A DNA stretch of 64,000 nt. Source: Rhodothermales bacterium. GTDB lineage: Bacteria > Bacteroidota > Rhodothermia > Rhodothermales > VXPQ01. Under the pieces are notes generated by a model, which worked only from the letters and a program-made list of their open reading frames with translations, ran no database searches and was not told the origin of the DNA. The stretch lies in assembly GCA_022825385.1 (NCBI GenBank), contig JAJDWX010000011.1, positions 1 through 64,000 of the forward strand, in the 5' to 3' direction. The stretch's first letter is position 1, and each line of letters begins with the position of its first letter. Position numbers and translations under genes: made by a program. This document shows, piece after piece, positions 1 to 62,308 of this stretch.

Positions 1-151
1 CGCGCCCTTCGGGAGGCTGCGAGGGGCACGCTGGCTGTGTCATTCCTCATTATGTGGGGCCTGCCACATCGCTTCGTCATTCCTTGCCAGCGCACCCCTC
101 GCATGCCTCTGAGCTTCGCGGATTTAATCAGAGTATCCTTACATATCGTTT
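1..151 (+). repeat. Dispersed palindromic intergenic repeat, copy A (cysS leader)
   Basis: This is a structured, non-coding repeat. Arms at 13-35 and 86-109 are imperfect inverted repeats of 23-24 bases. A perfect 6-bp hairpin (52-57 with 64-69) lies between them, flanked by two copies of GTCATTCC. The core at 88-140 ends in GGATTTAATCAG and recurs at about 20510-20563 (plus), 26276-26326 (minus) and, degenerate, at 35307-35335 (minus). It may extend left of the window. It ends about 40 bases before the cysS start. It resembles a REP- or MITE-like element; no transposase is nearby. Confidence 0.7.
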
Positions 152-187: not shown

Positions 188-1717
188 ATGCCGGAAAAAA
201 TCTTCCGCATATATAATTCGATGACGCGAAGCACGGAAGTCGTCGAGCCGGCGCAACCCGGGCGCCTGCGGTTCTACGCATGCGGCCCGACGGTCTATTC
301 CTATGCGCATATCGGAAATTTCCGGTCCTTTCTGACGGCGGACCTCGTGCTTCGAACCGCGCAAGCCATCGGATGGGAAACCGCTTACGTAACCAACATT
401 ACGGACGTAGGCCATCTGACCGAGGACGACGCGGCGGACGCGGAGGGGGAAGATCGCATGGCCAAAGCGCTGCGATCCAAAGAAGGGGAGCGCTTTGCGA
501 ATATCTGGGACCTGGCGCGCTATTACGCGAATACCCTGCTCTCCGACTGGCAAGCGCTCAATCTCCGCGAACCCGACGCGCGCCCGCGCGCCACGGAACA
601 TGTCGCCCGGCAAATCCGGGACGTCGCCCGGCTCCTCGAAAAAGGCCATGCCTACGAAACGGCGCAGGGCGTGTATTTTTCGGTGGCGTCCTTCCCGGAT
701 TATGGCAAATTGTCCGGCAACGTGCTGGCGACAGGGCTGGACGAAGGCGTCCGGGACGTGGTGCAGGACCCGGAAAAACGGGACCCGCGCGACTTTGCCT
801 TGTGGAAGAAAGACCCCGACCACCTTATGGTATGGCATAGCCCGTGGGGCTGGGGCTTCCCGGGATGGCACATCGAATGCTCCACCATGGCGCAAGCCTA
901 TCTGGGCGAATCGTTCGATCTGCACACAGGGGGCGAAGACAACAAATTTCCCCATCACGAATGCGAAATCGCGCAAGCCGAAAGCCTTTCCGGCAAGCCT
1001 TTCGCGCGGTATTGGCTCCACACGCGCTTCCTGCAAGTGGAAGGAGAAAAAATGGCCAAGAGCGCGGGTAATTTCTTTACCGTGCGCGACCTCGTCGGGC
1101 CCGAATCGGAAGGGGGACGCGGCATACATCCCCTCGCGCTCCGCCTGGCCCTGATTTCAGGGCAATACCGCAAGCCGCTGAACTTCACGTTCGATCAACT
1201 GCTGGCGTGCGCCCGGCATATCCAGCGGTTCGAAGAGGCCGCAGACCTCGCGGCGCAGGGCGTCGCCCGCAACGACCCCGGAGAGGACGCGCTTGGCGAA
1301 CCGCTGGCGCGCTTGTACGAACAGGCGCTCGCCGCCATGCTGGACGACCTGAACACCCCGGAAGCCATCGCCGCCGCTATCGAAGGAGCGAAACGGGTCT
1401 TGCGAGACGGGAGAACCATGGGCGGCGCCACGGCGCGATCCGCGCAAAACTGGCTGGAAAAAATCAACGGCCTGCTGGGAATCGTGGCGCAGGAAACGCC
1501 GCGAACAGCCGCGAAAACCGCCGGTTCCGCCGCTGCGGAGGAGGCGTTCGCCCGGGAAGTGGAGGACTTGTTGCGCCAACGCGCCGAAGCCCGCGCGCAA
1601 CGGGATTTCCAGCGGGCCGACGCGATCCGGGACCAACTCGCCGGGATGCAGGTCGAAATTATGGACGCCCCGGAAGGTACGCGGTGGCGGCGGCAAATAA
1701 GCAATCCTGTTTCCTGA
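188..1717 (+). CDS. cysS: Cysteinyl-tRNA synthetase
   Basis: A class I aminoacyl-tRNA synthetase of 509 residues that charges tRNA-Cys with cysteine in the cytoplasm. The signature is complete: Cys32 in the ACGPTVY motif, the HIGN box at 41-44, a second zinc-ligand Cys at 231 (HIECSTM), the GGEDN and HHECE segments that complete the zinc site and active site, and the KMSKS loop as KMAKS at 288-292. The C-terminal helical anticodon-binding part follows, with a QRDFQRAD-type helix near 475. Length is normal to slightly long. The ATG at 188 places the N-terminus at the usual distance from the first motif. hemB follows after 33 bases on the same strand, so the two may be co-transcribed. The leader contains repeat copy A. 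Confidence 0.97.
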
Positions 1718-19334: not shown

Positions 19335-19769
19335 ATGGCACAGGATCCAGACCCCGGACAGGTTACACATGATTACGTCAACGCCGCAATAAACGGCGTA
19401 CGCGCCGATATTGCGAAGGGATTCTGGGAGGCGAACATCGCCATTGCGAAGGGATTCTGGGAGGCGAACACCGCCATTGCGAAGGGATTCGGGGAGGCGA
19501 ACACCGCCATTGCGAAGATAAGAACCGAAAACGCGGAGCGATACAGCGAAATCAGGGGAGAGATAGCAACCGACTGGAAGCGAATGATTACGATAATGCT
19601 AACGGCATTAGCTTTAGCAACAACCATTATAGGCTTCTTGATTCGTTTTCTACCGCAACCCTTGCCCGCAACATCCCCGCCTGTCATAGTCCACGCGCCC
19701 CCGGCCCCTGCGGTTATGGAAACCCCCGCCGCCGATCCGCCTGCGCCGCTTCCCCTCAATACGGAGTAA
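19335..19769 (+). CDS. Small coiled-coil protein with 11-residue repeats and a membrane helix
   Basis: A 144-residue protein of no recognised family. Three near-identical 33-base units at 19410-19508 encode an 11-residue (hendecad) repeat of the form IAKGFWEANTA, followed by a fourth degenerate unit; this predicts a coiled coil at about residues 25-75. A single membrane helix (about 77-97, ITIMLTALALATTIIGFLI) follows, then a Pro/Ala-rich tail. The order, coiled coil then membrane anchor, recalls Bdr-like and DUF1640/CCDC90-like proteins. It converges on a second such gene at 19845-20090. The DNA repeat is prone to length change. Confidence 0.7.
   Translation: MAQDPDPGQVTHDYVNAAINGVRADIAKGFWEANIAIAKGFWEANTAIAKGFGEANTAIAKIRTENAERYSEIRGEIATDWKRMITIMLTALALATTIIGFLIRFLPQPLPATSPPVIVHAPPAPAVMETPAADPPAPLPLNTE
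19410..19508 (+). repeat. Tandem 33-base repeat inside the coiled-coil gene
   Basis: Three units of 33 bases differ at only a few positions (CTGGG/CGGGG; ATC/ACC). The period is a multiple of three, so copy-number change would keep the frame and add or remove 11 residues. Confidence 0.85.
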
Positions 19770-20090: not shown

Positions 20091-20560
20091 TGTCTTGCCG
20101 CGGGTTTAGGGTGCAGGGTATACGTTCGCTGCCCTGCGCAGTGTTCCCCTGCGCTTGCCCGTAGCGTCGCGCAACTGCTCCCCGACCTGCGGCGGCGTTG
20201 CGAGCTTCAATAGCTTGTTACCTTGCGAGGGATAAAGGGTTTCCGGCTGGTACGTTATCCGTTAAGGTAAAGTTACGCAATTTTCTGGATGCCCTCCCCC
20301 GGATACGCCGATCACAACCCCTTCGCCCGCCGCGTCGCAATCCCCTCCACCCCGCCACGCGCGCCTCGTTGCAATCCGCAGAAACCACTGCGGATTCGGC
20401 GCGTTGTGCACGTGACGCGCCCTTCGGAGGCTGCTGAGGCACGCCCGCTGCGTCATTCCTCATTATATTATTGCGGGGCCGCCACGCTGCCCGCTTCGTC
20501 ATTCCCGGCCGGCGCCCGCCTCGCAAGCCCCACAGCTTCGTGGACTTAATCACCATACCC
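20091..20560. other. Intergenic region with repeats upstream of cysD
   Basis: This 470-base gap holds no supported gene. It contains a perfect 9-bp hairpin at 20373-20396 that recurs, inverted and with a mismatch, at about 62197-62232, and then repeat copy B at about 20416-20563. The left half (20091-20300) would contain the promoter of the minus-strand 81-residue gene, but none is obvious. Confidence 0.6.
20373..20396. repeat. Short hairpin repeat, copy 1
   Basis: AATCCGCAG and CTGCGGATT are perfect 9-base inverted arms around a 6-base loop. The hairpin and its flank (ATTCGGCG) match the reverse complement of 62197-62232, so it belongs to a dispersed repeat. It lies about 20 bases left of repeat copy B. 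Confidence 0.6.
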
Positions 20561-20563
20561 TTG
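20416..20563 (+). repeat. Dispersed palindromic intergenic repeat, copy B (cysD leader)
   Basis: This aligns along its length with copy A at 1-151: CGCGCCCTTCGG, AGGCTG, GTCATTCCTCATTAT, GCTTCGTCATTCC and CAGCTTCGTGGA-TTAATCA all occur in the same order. The arms are more diverged than in copy A. The right end runs into the proposed TTG start of cysD. Confidence 0.7.
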
Positions 20564-21457
20564 CGTAACATTCATCTCGAACGGCTGGAATCCGAAGCCA
20601 TCTACATCATGCGGGAAACGGCTGCGCAATTCGAGCGGCCCTGCTTGATGTTTTCCGGCGGGAAGGATTCGCTCGTCATGGTGCGCCTTGCCCAAAAGGC
20701 GTTCTGGCCCGCGCCCATTCCATTTCCCCTCTTGCATGTAGACACCGGGCACAATTTCCCGGAAACGATCGCGCTGCGGGACCGCCTGACCCGGGAAATC
20801 GGCGCGCGATTGATTGTCCGAACCGTCCAGGATTCCATAGACCAGGGGCGCGTCAAGGAAGAAAAGGGGCCGAACGCAAGCCGCAACCTGCTGCAAATCA
20901 CTACGCTGCTCGACGCCCTCGGCGAACTCAAGACGGACGCCGCGCTGGGCGGCGCGCGCCGCGACGAGGAAAAGGCCCGCGCCAAGGAACGTTTCTTCTC
21001 GCACCGGGACCGTTTCGGGCAATGGGACCCCAAGAACCAGCGCCCGGAATTGTGGCACATTTTCAATGGACGGAAACGGCCCGGAGAGCATTTTCGCATT
21101 TTCCCGTTAAGCAACTGGACGGAACTGGACGTATGGGAATATATTCTCATGCAGGATATCGAAATTCCCTCCATCTACTTCGCCCATGAACGCGAGATCG
21201 TGGAACGGGACGGCGTGTTGCTTGCAAAATGCGATTACGTCTCGTTGGCGAACGGCGAAGCGTGGACGCGCGAAACGGTCCGGTTCCGAACCGTAGGAGA
21301 CATGACCTGCACCGGCGCCATCCGGTCCCCCGCCGCCACGCTGGAAGAAATCATCGAAGAAGTGGCCTCGGCCCGCGTCACCGAGCGCGGCGCCCGCGCC
21401 GACGACCTGCGCTCGGAAGCCGCCATGGAGGACCGCAAAAGACAAGGGTATTTTTAA
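20561..21457 (+). CDS. cysD: Sulfate adenylyltransferase subunit 2
   Basis: The catalytic small subunit of ATP sulfurylase, which with the GTPase CysN makes adenosine 5'-phosphosulfate (APS) from sulfate and ATP. It has 298 residues, near the usual 302. The ATP-PPase loop FSGGKDSLVM is at about 32-41, and the protein ends in the family's MEDRKRQGYF tail. The start is inferred: the family begins HL-x-LE-x-E(A/S)I, which fits a TTG at 20561 (LRNIHLERLESEAIYI). An upstream ATG at 20471 would add 30 residues encoded by repeat copy B. The cysN-cysC fusion follows after 44 bases. Confidence 0.94.
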   Translation: MRNIHLERLESEAIYIMRETAAQFERPCLMFSGGKDSLVMVRLAQKAFWPAPIPFPLLHVDTGHNFPETIALRDRLTREIGARLIVRTVQDSIDQGRVKEEKGPNASRNLLQITTLLDALGELKTDAALGGARRDEEKARAKERFFSHRDRFGQWDPKNQRPELWHIFNGRKRPGEHFRIFPLSNWTELDVWEYILMQDIEIPSIYFAHEREIVERDGVLLAKCDYVSLANGEAWTRETVRFRTVGDMTCTGAIRSPAATLEEIIEEVASARVTERGARADDLRSEAAMEDRKRQGYF

Positions 21458-25257: not shown

Positions 25258-26214
25258 CTACGCAACCCGATACGGAATACGCCGGGCGCCCTCGAGTACG
25301 GCCCGCACCGCTTCGGCGCACATTTCCGCCATCTTCAAACGCGTGGCGCGCGTGGCGCTGCCAAGGTGCGGCGCCAGCACAACATTGTCGAGGTCAAGCA
25401 ACCCCGGATGCACCGCCGGTTCCCGCTCGAAAACGTCCAGGCCCGCCGCGCGAATCGTACGGTTGCGCAGCGCCTCCGCAAGCGCTTCCTCGTCCACCAC
25501 GGCGCCGCGCGCCGTATTGACCAGGATGGCCGAGGGTTTCATGCGCGCAAACGCCTCGCGCCCGATGAGGCCCCGACTGGACGCATTCAGATTGCAATGC
25601 AAGGAAATCACGTCGCTCGTCTCCAGAAGCGCGTCAAGCGAAAGGAACCGGGCGCCCAGTTTCTGCTCTACGGACGGATTGGCGCGGGACCGGTTGCAAT
25701 AGCATACGCGCATCCCGAACCCGATAGCCCGCCGCGCCATGGCGGCGCCTATCCTGCCGAGCCCCACGATCCCTATCGCGCCGCCGTTCAGTTCGGCGCC
25801 CAGCATAAGGTCCGCTTCCCATCTCGAAAATTTCCCGTCGCGCACATACCGGTCCGCCGGCGCAATCTGCCGGGCCGCCGCCAGGAGCAACGCAAACGCC
25901 ATATCCGCGGTGGCCTCCGTAAGTACGCCCGGCGTGTTCGTCACCACGACGCCCCGCGCCCGCGCCGCCGCCACGTCAATGTTGTCGTACCCCACCGCAT
26001 ACTGCGCAACCACCTTCACGTCGGGACAAGCGCGCAACACCCGGTCGGTAACCGGATCCGACAAGAGCGTGATCAGGGCGTCGGCCCCTTGCGCAATATC
26101 GATCAGCTGATCCTCCTCCGGCGCTCCGGGAGAAAAACGATGCTGGACGACCTCGTAGCCATCCAGCGGAAACAGCCCTTCGAGCGGCAACGGGCGCGTT
26201 ACGACGATACGCAT
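25258..26214 (-). CDS. D-2-hydroxyacid dehydrogenase, glyoxylate/hydroxypyruvate reductase type
   Basis: An NAD(P)-dependent D-isomer-specific 2-hydroxyacid dehydrogenase of 318 residues. The Rossmann loop is GIVGLGRIGAAMARR (about 150-164), the catalytic Arg lies in VNTARGAVVDEEAL, and the catalytic His in the VLAPHLGSAT segment. The N-terminus (MRIVVTRPL... PLDGYEV) resembles glyoxylate reductase/D-glycerate dehydrogenase; phosphoglycerate dehydrogenase-like activity cannot be excluded, though the ACT domain of SerA is absent. The ATG at 26214 is preferred over an upstream start. It converges with the sulfate operon across a 29-base gap. Repeat copy C lies about 62-112 bases upstream on the same strand. 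Confidence 0.88.
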   Translation of the reverse strand: MRIVVTRPLPLEGLFPLDGYEVVQHRFSPGAPEEDQLIDIAQGADALITLLSDPVTDRVLRACPDVKVVAQYAVGYDNIDVAAARARGVVVTNTPGVLTEATADMAFALLLAAARQIAPADRYVRDGKFSRWEADLMLGAELNGGAIGIVGLGRIGAAMARRAIGFGMRVCYCNRSRANPSVEQKLGARFLSLDALLETSDVISLHCNLNASSRGLIGREAFARMKPSAILVNTARGAVVDEEALAEALRNRTIRAAGLDVFEREPAVHPGLLDLDNVVLAPHLGSATRATRLKMAEMCAEAVRAVLEGARRIPYRVA

Positions 26215-28724: not shown

Positions 28725-31700
28725 TTACTTCAGCAGCGCCATCGTCTTGACGGCCACCTGCTCTTCGGTCCGCAGAACATAGAGATACGTCCCGCTGGCG
28801 AGGTTCGAAGCGTCGAACGGAACGCGGTAGCGCGCCGCCGGGCGGACGCCGTCCACGAGGACCTGCACTTCCTGGCCAAGCAGGTCGTACACCGCCAGCG
28901 TGACGTGCTGCGTCCTGTCCAGCGCAAACGCGATGGTTGTCGTCGGGTTGAAGGGATTCGGATAGTTCTGCTCCAGGGCGAAGGCGGTCGGTATTTCGCC
29001 GTCCGGGGATTCTATCGACGTTACGCGGGCTTCCGTAATCGTAACTTCGACGGACGCCTCTGCGCCCGCCTCGAGACCCGAGATAAGGGTTCCTAAGGCT
29101 ACGGTGAATGTTTCGTCCTGCAGGTCGTCGTCCGCCGTCGTGGAGATCACGCCCGTTGCGTTCGGCTCGTTCGCGTCGATAGCGATGGAGGCCAGCGCGC
29201 CATAGTCCCCTGATTCGGCGTCGCCCGGGGTCAGGATAATGGGAATGTCGATGTCGCTGGAGACCAACCGGGAAAGGCCGACCGTTACGGTGATGTCCTC
29301 GCCCTCCATTACGGGGTTTGGAGAAACGGACAGCGTAACCCGGGATACGTTGTCGCCGCCAACCGTATTGCCGCCGCCTACGGCTGTATTTCCGCCGCCG
29401 TCAGCGATGCTTCCAACCGTATTGCCGCCGCCGTCGTTATCGCCGTCGTTATCGCCGTCGTTGTCGCCGTCGTTGTCGCCGTCGTTATCGCCGTCGTTGT
29501 CGCCGTCGTTGTCGCCGTCGTTATCGCCGTCGTTGTCGCCGTCCTTGTCGCCGTCGTTGTCGCCGTCGTTGTCGCCGTCGTTGTCGCCGTCGTTGTCGCC
29601 GTCGTCGTTGTCCGTGATGGTCAGGGTAAATACCGAGGCGCCGCCCACGTCGTAGCCCGTCCCGCTCGTCAGCGTCAGAATAACCGTCTCGCTCGATTCG
29701 TCCGCGCTGTCGTCCGCAATGGCGACAGGGATGTTCACGGACGCATCGCCGCCGCTGACGCTCGCCGTGCCGCTATTGCTCGTAACCCCGCTGATCGAAT
29801 AGTCCGCATCCCGCGTCGCGGTGCCGGACAAAGTATAATTCAGCGTGATATTCGCAGGCGGCACCGGGTTCAGGTTGACCGTCACGTTCTGCGTTCCTGC
29901 GCTTTCCGCCGCGCTGGCCGAAGCCGAGGCGAAACTCGCCACCGGCGTGGCGGGCGGCGGGGGCGGGGGCGGCGGCGCCGTTCCGTCGTCGTCCGCGATC
30001 GTAATGGTCGTCTGCGGGGTTGCGCCGAGGTCGTAGTCCGCGCCATCCGTAAGGTCCAGAATCAGGGTCTCCGCCCCTTCGTCCAGCGCGTCGTCCGTGA
30101 TGGTAACCGTGATATTGCCGGAGGTCTGGCCCTGGGCGATATTCAGGCTGCCGCTCAGACTGCCGTAGTCGCCGGAGCCGGCCGTGCTCGAACTGTTTAC
30201 TGCGTACGCCACGCTCAGCCCGCCCGACGGCGCGGCCGGCGAGACGTTCACCTGCGCGTTCACCGTACGGCTGCCCGCCGCCTCCCCGCCGGAATAGGCC
30301 GCGGAAGCGAACGTGGCCACCGGCGCCGGGTCGGGCGCCACGTCGATGGTCGCCGTGCCCGCAAGGTCGTCGAACTGCTGAACGTTGCCGTTCCCGTCGT
30401 CATACAGGGGCGTGATCGTGACCGTGAGGGTCATCGCTTCCGCCGCGTCGTGCTGAAAGGTCCAGCTCGTTTGCGTCCAGCCGTCCGCTAAGCCCTGGAC
30501 ATAGTTTTGTTGATCCACCAAGGCGCTGGTGGTCTCGTACTCGACCAGGTAGGAGGTGGCGTGGGGCACGGCGTCCCAGGTCGCCGTCGCCGAAGCGTCG
30601 TCGTCGGCCGTCACCGCCACGTTGCCCACCGCCGCCGTCGGCTGCAACGGCACCACCACGTTGTCCTTGTCGCTACCCTGACCCAGGGGCAGCTCGTCAT
30701 GTTCGCTATCCTGCCCCAGCGGCTCGTCACGTTCCACCACGCCGATCCGCATGACGTCGCTGACGCCACCGTAGCCGCCGTCCGAGGCCGTGTGCACCAG
30801 CGAGAAGCGGTCGTTTTCCTTGTCGGCGTCGCTTGACGAAAAAACGTCGATCCCCTGCGGCACGTGCCAGTTGTCCGTGGTGAAGGTCAGGCTCGTGCGG
30901 CTTAGCCTGACGTTGTTCCAGTTGCCGTCGCCGTCCCCATCGTTGCGCCGCGTAATCGAAACGCTCACGTTGCCATTGGGCGGGGCTGCGAGCCGCACCG
31001 TGTAGCCCCCCCCGCCGCCCTCGGGCATGGTCAGCCCGCCGAACATCGGGGTGCTGGACGTGAGGATCAGGCCCCGGGAATGGTCGTCGTCGGCCACTTC
31101 CACCGTCGCCTGATAGTGGCCCGGATCCACCGTGTAGTTGCTCGTGGGCGCCAGCGTCACCGTGACGGCGCCGTCCGACCCAGCATTGTTGTCAGTCTGC
31201 GGTAAGACCTGGAATATCTTCGCCGCGCCGTCCTGCCAGGGATTGATGGTTATCGTCTTCGTGCCCTCGTTGGTGGACGACACGAAATCCTGACCCTCGC
31301 TCGCGTCCTCCGAGACTTTGAGGGTGACGGTCAGTGGCGCGGGCGAGACCCAGTCCGTGCTTACCGTCAGCGTGAAGCTCGCCGCCGTCCCCTCGACCAC
31401 CGGGGCGTAGCCGGTCCCCGCCTGCCCGGACACGAAGTTGCCGTAGCGGCTGATCTGGAGCTGCGGAATGCTCCCCGCGTCCTGGTCGTCGTCCTGGATG
31501 TGCACGATGGCGGCGGACAAGCCGCGGAGTACGCCAGCGGGCAGCCCGGTCGAAAGGATTTCCACCCGAAAACTTTCCGTACTCTCCTCCCGGTCATCCT
31601 CCACGGTGCGAACCGTTAGCGTGGCGCGGGGGTGGCCCGCCGGTATCGTGACCGTGTAGGGTTCAATGTAATCAATGCTGGTTCCCGTCGCGCTGATCGG

Positions 31701-31994
31701 GATAGTGAAGAATGTCACCGTCGTGGCTGCGGTGCGGGGCGCGGACAGCACCACATCCAACTTCGCCGCATCGCCCTCCCACACAGGGTAGTCTGGCGAC
31801 GAGAAAGAGAGGGTCTGCGCGGCGGCCGGGGCGGCGAGGGCAAGTAGTAACGAGAGGCACAGCAGGCCCGGCCACAGGCTGAAAATAAATCGGGCGGAGG
31901 CCCGACGGAGAAAGACGAAAACCGAGCCCGGGACTTCAGATGCGGAATGCAGGCGGGGGCGCGACAAAAGCGACGGAAACATTGCCGTTCTCAT
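28725..31994 (-). CDS. Secreted multi-domain Calx-beta protein with T9SS C-terminal sorting domain
   Basis: A 1,089-residue exported protein. The order is: basic N-terminus with a hydrophobic signal (about 40-60, LLALAAPAAAQ); several Calx-beta-like repeats with EDDREESTESF- and DDALDEGAETL-type acidic motifs; a fibronectin-like domain near 480-560; a run of eight prolines; another Calx-beta repeat; a DGDN tetrapeptide tract; a further beta domain; and a type A T9SS sorting domain in the last ~80 residues (QNYPNPFNP, YDLLGQEV, GTYLYVL). The last domain is known to direct secretion through T9SS. Adhesion or surface binding of calcium is likely. It is divergent from the TPR-lipid region gene at 32236. 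Confidence 0.9.
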   Translation of the reverse strand: MRTAMFPSLLSRPRLHSASEVPGSVFVFLRRASARFIFSLWPGLLCLSLLLALAAPAAAQTLSFSSPDYPVWEGDAAKLDVVLSAPRTAATTVTFFTIPISATGTSIDYIEPYTVTIPAGHPRATLTVRTVEDDREESTESFRVEILSTGLPAGVLRGLSAAIVHIQDDDQDAGSIPQLQISRYGNFVSGQAGTGYAPVVEGTAASFTLTVSTDWVSPAPLTVTLKVSEDASEGQDFVSSTNEGTKTITINPWQDGAAKIFQVLPQTDNNAGSDGAVTVTLAPTSNYTVDPGHYQATVEVADDDHSRGLILTSSTPMFGGLTMPEGGGGGYTVRLAAPPNGNVSVSITRRNDGDGDGNWNNVRLSRTSLTFTTDNWHVPQGIDVFSSSDADKENDRFSLVHTASDGGYGGVSDVMRIGVVERDEPLGQDSEHDELPLGQGSDKDNVVVPLQPTAAVGNVAVTADDDASATATWDAVPHATSYLVEYETTSALVDQQNYVQGLADGWTQTSWTFQHDAAEAMTLTVTITPLYDDGNGNVQQFDDLAGTATIDVAPDPAPVATFASAAYSGGEAAGSRTVNAQVNVSPAAPSGGLSVAYAVNSSSTAGSGDYGSLSGSLNIAQGQTSGNITVTITDDALDEGAETLILDLTDGADYDLGATPQTTITIADDDGTAPPPPPPPPATPVASFASASASAAESAGTQNVTVNLNPVPPANITLNYTLSGTATRDADYSISGVTSNSGTASVSGGDASVNIPVAIADDSADESSETVILTLTSGTGYDVGGASVFTLTITDNDDGDNDGDNDGDNDGDNDGDKDGDNDGDNDGDNDGDNDGDNDGDNDGDNDGDNDGDNDGGGNTVGSIADGGGNTAVGGGNTVGGDNVSRVTLSVSPNPVMEGEDITVTVGLSRLVSSDIDIPIILTPGDAESGDYGALASIAIDANEPNATGVISTTADDDLQDETFTVALGTLISGLEAGAEASVEVTITEARVTSIESPDGEIPTAFALEQNYPNPFNPTTTIAFALDRTQHVTLAVYDLLGQEVQVLVDGVRPAARYRVPFDASNLASGTYLYVLRTEEQVAVKTMALLK
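29431..29606 (-). repeat. 12-base tandem repeat encoding the DGDN tract
   Basis: About 13 tandem 12-base units encode the tetrapeptide DGDN, one of them DGDK. Silent differences (GTT/GTT, ATC/GTC) are scattered among units. The period is a multiple of three, so slippage would change tract length without breaking the frame. It is coding, not a CRISPR array. Confidence 0.9.
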
Positions 31995-37676: not shown

Positions 37677-37785
37677 GGGGTTCTGCGAAGCGCCTTTTCG
37701 CGAATACATAAGGGTGCGCAGGCCCATGGGTTGGCATGCATATTCGGGGCCCAATGTTTCGCGAAAAGGCGCTTCACAGAACCCC
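37677..37785. repeat. 28-bp inverted repeat with 53-base spacer
   Basis: The arms 37677-37704 (GGGGTTCTGCGAAGCGCCTT...) and 37758-37785 are reverse complements with a single mismatch over 28 bases. The spacer is 53 bases. Inverted repeats of this kind flank invertible promoter switches in Bacteroidota and also bound MITEs. No recombinase lies nearby. The spacer contains no clear promoter on either strand. Confidence 0.85.
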
Positions 37786-45491: not shown

Positions 45492-45531
45492 AATGCTTAC
45501 CGCGTATGGTTGTATAACCGTCGTATGATTT

Positions 45532-46500
45532 TTATGTCCGCTGCCGCGAAACCGCGGATTTGAAACCGAGCGACATCGGATGCGCGTCGCCCATCGGCCG
45601 TACCGGATCGACCAGCCGCATCTTGTGCACCAGTTCGATGGCGGGCCGAATGTCCGCAATCCGAAAACCGTGTCCGAAAAGCGTCTCCTCGTACACCCGC
45701 GTATGCAAATCGTCGAACCGGTTGGAAAACTCGATCTCGTCGCCATCCACCTGAATGGACCGATAGGTTCGTTGCCCGTCCCGGACCTCTTCCGGCATAT
45801 CGCGTTCGTCTATCGACAAAAACCATTGCACGTCCGCGCGTTTCAGCGCCAGCAGGCCGCCGGCCCGCTTCGTTTCCATCACATGAATGCGATGCCCTTC
45901 GACGCCGCCGAACAGCCACAAAAGCAGATCGAAAAAATGAATCCCGATATTCATGGCAATCCCGCCGGACTTTTCGGTATCCCCTTTCCAGGAATAACCG
46001 TACCAGACGCCGCGCGAAGTCACATACGTCAAACGGACGCTGTAGCGCCGCTCTGGATCCTCTTGCAACCGCGCGCGCAAGGACAAAATATCCGGGTGCA
46101 TACGCAATTGCAGCACGGTATACACCGCGCCGGGGTGTTCTTCTTCCAGTTTCTGCAAATAGTCCAGGTTGCCCGGTTTCAGCACCAGCGGCTTTTCGCA
46201 GATCGCGTTGGCGCCCAGCCGCAGCGCCAGCCGAATATGCGCGTCGTGCAGATGATTCGGCGAGCATACGGAAAGGTAATGCAGTTGGCGGGGAGACCTT
46301 TGCCGCCGAAGTTTTTCGAGGTGGCGATCAAAGCGCTCTATCTCGGTGAAAAACGCGGCGGACGGAAAATATCGATCCAGAATGCCCACGGAATCGTGCG
46401 GATCGACGGCGGCCAGCAACTGATTGCCCGTATCCTTTATGGCTTGCAAATGCCGGGGGGCGATATAGCCGGCTACGCCGGTGATGGCAAAGTTTCGCAT
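45532..46500 (-). CDS. wbpB: WbpB-like UDP-GlcNAc-uronate 3-dehydrogenase (Gfo/Idh/MocA family)
   Basis: A 322-residue oxidoreductase that matches WbpB along its length as I recall that family: ITGVAGYIAPRHLQAIKDTG at the N-terminus, FFTEIERFDRH, SVCSPNHLHDAHI, the CEKPLV motif with the catalytic-site Lys, SWKGDTEKSGGIAMNIGIHFFD and RTYRSIQVDGDEIEFS. WbpB oxidises C3 of UDP-GlcNAcA with a bound nicotinamide cofactor that is recycled by 2-oxoglutarate. It works with WbpA, WbpE and WbpD, all present in this window. Start ATG at 46500. It lies between the GH16 lipoprotein gene and ugd. Confidence 0.93.
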   Translation of the reverse strand: MRNFAITGVAGYIAPRHLQAIKDTGNQLLAAVDPHDSVGILDRYFPSAAFFTEIERFDRHLEKLRRQRSPRQLHYLSVCSPNHLHDAHIRLALRLGANAICEKPLVLKPGNLDYLQKLEEEHPGAVYTVLQLRMHPDILSLRARLQEDPERRYSVRLTYVTSRGVWYGYSWKGDTEKSGGIAMNIGIHFFDLLLWLFGGVEGHRIHVMETKRAGGLLALKRADVQWFLSIDERDMPEEVRDGQRTYRSIQVDGDEIEFSNRFDDLHTRVYEETLFGHGFRIADIRPAIELVHKMRLVDPVRPMGDAHPMSLGFKSAVSRQRT

Positions 46501-62164: not shown

Positions 62165-62196
62165 AGGCCTGCCGAAGGGCTCGTCACGTTCCCTAT

Positions 62197-62232
62197 ACGC
62201 CGAATCTGCGTGGTTTCTGCGGATTTCAACGC
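62197..62232. repeat. Short hairpin repeat, copy 2 (inverted)
   Basis: The reverse complement of this stretch (AATCCGCAGAAACCAC and ATTCGGCG blocks) matches 20373-20399. One base mismatch weakens the hairpin. It lies between aroK and rnhB, which converge. Confidence 0.5.
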
Positions 62233-62308
62233 GGGAATCATACCTTGCCTGTACGGGCGCCGCACCGGTCGAAATGAATTGGGCGAAAGGTTTTGACCAG
62301 CGTATTCC

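Follow-up and report, generated by a model that had tools for sequence, protein, structure and literature searches.

A dispersed, genus-restricted MITE with an IS5-family link lies upstream of cysS and cysD in a Rhodothermales genome

The palindromic repeat that precedes cysS, cysD and a 2-hydroxyacid dehydrogenase gene in the window, i.e. the opening 64 kb of contig C17 of the source genome G000 (3.02 Mb, 49 contigs), is an ordinary though undescribed mobile repeat, a genus-specific MITE. We are highly confident that it represents a dispersed family, restricted to one genus and linked to the IS5 family, whose copies at these three genes are chance members. As its copies lie beside these genes by chance, the repeat does not represent an RNA switch that senses cysteine. 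The original prediction had offered a REP/MITE family as the simplest reading, which proved right and is sharpened here to a MITE with a link to IS5, and a leader RNA with a regulatory role as an alternative, which is refuted below. A literature search for this repeat family retrieved no description of it.

The full element, as deduced from the consensus of its copies, is about 254 bp long (GGATACTCTGATYAAANCCRCTTCGCTCAGCGCGTCAC ... GACGCGCCCTTCGGGAGGCTGCGAGGGGCACGCTGGCTGTGTCATTCCTCATTATGTGGGGCCTGCCACATTGCTTCGTCATTCCTTGCCAGCGCACCCCTCGCAGCCTCTGAGCTTCGCGGATTTAATCAGAGTATCC). Both ends of full copies carry related terminal inverted repeats (TIRs), GGATACTCTGATYAAANCC, which start with GGATACTCTGAT. 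The element is short and devoid of a coded protein, and the aligned copies differ by single bases as well as by longer length differences. The sequence GGATTTAATCAG, previously regarded as a conserved end, indeed occurs twice as an exact match in the window, compared with 0.17 matches expected at one mismatch or less; it represents, however, the inner part of the right TIR and not the core.

All three copies that had been noticed upstream of genes (A, B and C) were recovered by sequence match, and their orientation relative to the following gene is as originally described (Table 1). Extents had to be revised: the end of copy A had been placed at position 151 and thus about 13 bp too far, and only the right part of the full-length copy B had been recognised. 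A fourth copy, D, was taken to be the decayed left half near the end of the window. The contig starts within the repeat, which is why copy A is cut off at base 1. Its left half forms the end of another contig of the same genome, C13, the last 118 bases of which are identical to the first 118 bases of C17. Further contigs of G000 start or stop in the element as well, including C3, C6, C18, C20, C21, C23 and C41. The draft assembly thus breaks inside the element, which in turn allows contigs such as C13 and C17 to be joined. The family explains the repeats in the window and many of the points at which contigs break off in these Rhodothermales assemblies.

Table 1. Copies of the element and adjacent features in the window, and mini-forms in two sister genomes
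Feature	Position	Strand	Description
Copy A	1..138	+	right 138 bp of the MITE: hairpin region and right TIR ...GGATTTAATCAGAGTATCC
TSD TTAC of copy A	139..142	.	the counterpart TTAC lies ahead of the left TIR on C13
Imperfect long hairpin	9..112	+	arms GAGGCTGCGAGGGGCACGCTGGC / GCCAGCGCACCCCTCGC(AT)GCCTC, apical stem TGTGG/CCACA
cysS	221..1717	+	downstream of copy A; PF01406; ATG at 188 is an alternative start
Copy B	20301..20560	+	full-length, diverged, ~77% identical; right end adjoins the 5' end of cysD or extends into it
cysD (PAPS_reduct domain)	20540..21457	+	downstream of copy B
D-isomer-specific 2-hydroxyacid dehydrogenase	25258..26214	-	downstream of copy C
Copy C	26277..~26328	-	right end only, truncated; 52 bp with ~90% identity; divergent intergenic region
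Empty target site	45528..45535	.	G002 has a full-length copy there (locus L099), the window none
Copy D	~62182..62308	-	decayed left half; downstream of the preceding + strand gene
Mini-forms	G4 offsets 152801, 468986, 671899; G5 offsets 163773, 169608, 250390 from base 300001		

Two in-frame candidate starts of cysD lie near the right end of copy B, namely GTG at 20540 inside the end of the element and TTG at 20561 one base past it. The MITE may therefore have supplied or displaced the start codon of cysD, the genes having been called with a home-made dicodon model that is adequate for context and not for exact starts.

A genome-wide search, as proposed with the original prediction, revealed 46 matches in the source genome (best E 3e-74), together with 152 TIR ends compared with none for a reversed-pattern control. 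In the complete genomes G005 (2,817,622 bp) and G004 (2,686,407 bp), 78 and 127 core-bearing copies were found, respectively, with no control matches in either, so that a genome contains on the order of 100 sites. In one Rhodothermales genus 6/6 genomes contain the element, compared with 0/54 other genomes of the order; likewise, a search of viral contigs and plasmids gave no match.

The copies bear the marks of insertion. When GGATAC...GTATCC is taken as the boundary of the element, the agreement between the two flanks of 64 copies peaks at exactly 4 bp, with a mean identity of 0.73 compared with about 0.25 at 7-9 bp. The target duplication (TSD) thus has a fixed length of 4 bp; it is AT-rich with the consensus TWWA, and it is perfect in 24 of the 64 copies. 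Moreover, filled and empty sites were found between species, the latter with a single copy of the target and with otherwise collinear flanking DNA: L103 is filled and L030 empty (TAAA), and the same holds for L106 and L011 (TTAAA), for L067 and L029, and for G4 and G5. Correspondingly, the G002 insertion L099 has its matching empty site in the window at ~45531. For copy A, a clean empty site with the target TTAC lies upstream of the 97% identical cysS gene of G002, reading cttcctcgccgttttttcg-TTAC-atatcgc, whereas the source genome has TTAC on each side of the copy. Copy A is likewise absent upstream of cysS in G001, G003, G004 and G005, hence in all five sister genomes, and so is copy C at its locus (5/5). 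Copy B is common to G002 only; it is absent from G001, G003 and G005, and G004 contains short, independent-looking remnants. When we looked for occupation of the same loci throughout the genus without empty sites, the opposite, i.e. insertion polymorphism, was observed. These empty sites in sister species, including the one for copy A, prove insertion.

In search of the protein that could have moved the element, a DDE_Tnp_1 search identified three degraded transposase genes in G005 that end with GGATACTCTGATYWAATCC-like repeats. One remnant (L155/L159; 666 bp, internally deleted) keeps both ends, GGATACTCTGATTTAATCC ... GGATTGATCAGAGTATCC, and is flanked by TTAT/TTAA; the two further remnants share the same right end. 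The G005 fragments match the NCBIfam model NF033581 (IS5_4) with E values of 9e-27 for the C-terminal and 3e-12 for the N-terminal part, and also PF01609; as the queries were fragments, the IS5_4 scores stay below the full-length cut-off. By sequence, the transposase of the remnants is thus assigned to the IS5 family, and IS5-group elements make 4-bp duplications. PF01609 matches in G000, G002 and G004 (L149-L151, L153, L154, L156) were rejected as cognate transposase, as they are devoid of matching ends.

An intact cognate transposase was sought in the six genomes; apart from the G005 fragments, only a 29-aa remnant in G004, which adjoins a decayed element end, and a weak match in G002 were obtained. 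The IS5 link consequently rests on the shared ends, the TSD-like flanks and the remnants. Likewise, a search of 1.2 Mb for an autonomous partner in the form of paired ends confirmed no clean pair spaced 1-2 kb apart, a self-comparison for multicopy genes yielded no obvious IS, and a comparison of the MITE with the remnant IS showed no internal similarity beyond the ends. The shared ends establish the relationship to the transposase at the sequence level, and the MITE was probably mobilised by an IS5-type transposase, which we infer to have acted in trans on the ends common to both. Such an enzyme would excise or copy the element and join it to a staggered, AT-rich 4-bp target such as TTAA. Confined to one genus and recently mobile, with an IS5-family partner in decay, the MITE offers an instructive example of a non-autonomous family that may outlive its transposase.

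In the G004 and G005 stretches we also observed mini-forms of about 37 bp, GGATACTCTGATTAAGTCCGCGAAGTTCAGAGTATCC, that consist of the two joined ends and hardly anything else. TTAA flanks at least one of them, at G4 152801, on either side; the mini-forms might have arisen by deletion or represent the smallest form that is still mobile. In the same stretches many solo ends pass into unique sequence after 20-60 bp, which suggests frequent internal truncation of copies. Furthermore, an array of adjacent elements of about 517 bp is present in G004 (C1, 563.5-564.0 kb and 565.4-566.0 kb) as an inverted duplicate, with 92% identity and about 1.4 kb apart.

The element resembles several known repeat families. 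Like the Correia/NEMIS elements of Neisseria, it is short and non-coding, carries TIRs and a TSD, reaches more than 120 copies per genome, often lies just upstream of genes and can be folded (PMC10969869, PMC2229807). However, the sequence is another one, the Correia elements have a 5'-TA terminal motif in place of the 4-bp TWWA duplications seen here, and their promoters have been shown experimentally, whereas only some species of the present genus contain a consensus-like string. With ERIC/IRU of enterobacteria, the orientation of which can affect mRNA stability, it shares an imperfect palindrome, intergenic location and tens to hundreds of copies (PMC2229807, PMC10969869). ERIC/IRU are, however, 127 bp long with a 7-bp TIR and 5'-TA termini, whereas the present element is about 254 bp long and asymmetric, with a hairpin in the right half only. 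MITECca01 of the symbiont Cardinium (Amoebophilaceae) is likewise lineage-specific, mostly intergenic, present in 169 copies and derived from an identifiable IS (PMC9769881), but its parent is IS982 with intact copies, while the candidate parent here belongs to the IS5 family and persists as remnants only. The IS5 family itself (NF033581, IS5_4) agrees in the G005 remnants that match it, in ends beginning with GG and in AT-rich 4-bp flanks; in contrast to its members, the MITE contains no transposase sequence and has an internal hairpin of its own.

With respect to gene context, 107 of the 109 copies of at least 100 bp in the G004 and G005 stretches (2.0 Mb) are intergenic, compared with 13% non-coding sequence by our own gene calls. 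Selection would remove intragenic insertions. The copies occupy tandem, divergent and convergent gaps in a ratio of 58:36:13, compared with 64:31:12 expected from gap length (chi-square p 0.46-0.54). The original prediction had stated that copies in random position and orientation, also downstream of unrelated genes, would refute a leader RNA. Divergent and convergent gaps are indeed filled in proportion to their length, although a modest sense bias remains.

This bias is seen in tandem genes, where 48 copies are sense and 19 antisense (four species pooled, p 0.0005), and it is one of two points, besides the conservation of the right-half hairpin, that a plain MITE does not require. It raises the possibility that MITE copies were co-opted as portable promoters or leaders, with the sense orientation kept by selection, as reported for Correia elements. 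In line with this, the left half of many copies in the source genome contains the promoter-like string TTGAAA-N16-TAGATT, and several right ends lie 2-30 bp ahead of a start codon. However, the bias is weaker in the two complete genomes (37:21, p 0.048), and the -10-like box is lost from the G4/G5 consensus, so that the promoter string is not conserved between species; nor are copies enriched in promoter-containing gaps. Moreover, strand statistics drawn from the core list of G005 and the G004/G005 stretches indicate that 66/109 copies are co-oriented with the leading strand as given by GC skew. The same preference holds for divergent and convergent copies (31/49), which lack a single gene orientation, and sense copies amount to just 9/16 for genes on the lagging strand. 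As the sense bias also tracks the leading strand, the expectation of sense orientation is borne out as a real bias that cannot be assigned to gene regulation, and co-option as promoters or leaders appears rather unlikely. Target choice may contribute to the bias. Many copies have a stop codon at a distance of 10 bp or less, and targets such as TTAA or TAAA can include a TAA stop codon, which would fit these stop-abutting copies.

The ~23-base inverted arms and the internal hairpin of the original prediction are correct. Folding yields z scores of -3.8 (sense strand) and -4.8 (antisense strand). Moreover, the hairpin is as conserved as the TIRs: the mean pairwise identity of the right hairpin body is 0.883, compared with 0.689 for the left body, even though the cysS, cysD and dehydrogenase genes of G000 are only 80-84% identical to those of G001, G003, G004 and G005. 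Double changes, for instance from C-G to A-T between species (outer stem) or from T-A to C-G between copies (apical stem), occur at 14-15 stem pairs, compared with 5-7 in shuffles; the count of 15, out of 28 pairs in the two stems, contrasts with 7.2 expected and was reached in 0/200 shuffles. As the shuffles take no account of relatedness and compensation can be mimicked by quasi-palindrome correction, these counts suggest, without proving, that selection acts on the hairpin structure.

Pairing is retained in 96.0% of cells on the antisense strand compared with 88.9% on the sense strand. Together with the excess of double changes and the conservation across species, this could point to an expressed, structured small RNA encoded antisense with respect to most of the downstream genes. 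However, the better pairing of the antisense strand is chiefly due to a fixed tandem C-A/A-C mismatch that becomes two G-U pairs there, so that two fixed pairs account for most of the asymmetry. The compensatory changes could also stem from quasi-palindrome correction, and an Rfam search of the element matched no family. We consequently hold such a small RNA to be distinctly improbable. A further extension, in which the hairpin would be a selected structured RNA, probably antisense, and the MITE would spread about 100 functional RNA or RNase-processed copies as a genome-wide post-transcriptional regulator, we regard as very improbable, and a host role for the hairpin is unlikely. Within the MITE, the right-half hairpin would most likely serve the element itself, by folding or recognition in transposition, or represent a tolerated structure at transcript ends. 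The covarying hairpin conserved between species is nevertheless the one feature of the element beyond a plain MITE that is worth attention.

A cis-acting leader RNA, riboswitch-like or an attenuator, for cysteine, sulfur or serine genes had been suggested by the sense orientation of copies A, B and C upstream of their genes, and the fold of the right half would be compatible with it. This reading is refuted by the empty sites, by the miscellaneous nature of the downstream genes and by the filling of gaps in proportion to their length, and its residual probability is close to nil. Copies A and C are missing at the same genes in every sister genome and copy B recurs only in G002, thus the position is not conserved across species. 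Nor are copies restricted to 5' regions, as they also fill convergent gaps, in which a leader is impossible. The anticipated enrichment upstream of cysteine or serine genes was not borne out: cysS and cysD account for two of the roughly 27 downstream genes scanned, which form no coherent regulon; of the others, almost none is related to sulfur. In the source genome the downstream genes comprise purE, tsaD, hemH, adk (adenylate kinase), thiD and genes for an ECF sigma factor, CdaA, a DivIVA protein, an L,D-transpeptidase, SDR epimerases and a class IV aminotransferase. The better fold on the strand antisense to the genes and the Rfam result likewise argue against a leader. The identification as a MITE guards against wrongly annotating a riboswitch ahead of cysS and cysD.

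A REP/BIME-like family of palindromes, spread by a RAYT (Y1) transposase that acts on single-stranded DNA, can scarcely be entertained, for although the element is palindromic, intergenic and of high copy number with some leading-strand bias, it carries the TIRs and the 4-bp TSD that such a family lacks, and DDE transposase remnants have the same ends. TIRs together with a 4-bp TSD are not known as products of single-stranded Y1 transposition.

Three further repeats were observed in the window. A separate inverted repeat at 37677-37785, with 28-nt arms that are 96% complementary and 53 nt apart, lies outside the MITE family. Three copies of a 33-bp tandem repeat are located at 19405-19517 inside a weakly scoring ORF. 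Finally, a 12-bp tandem repeat array of about 17 overlapping units at 29381-29656, within the minus-strand gene 28725-31982, apparently codes for an Asp/Asn/Gly-rich stretch.
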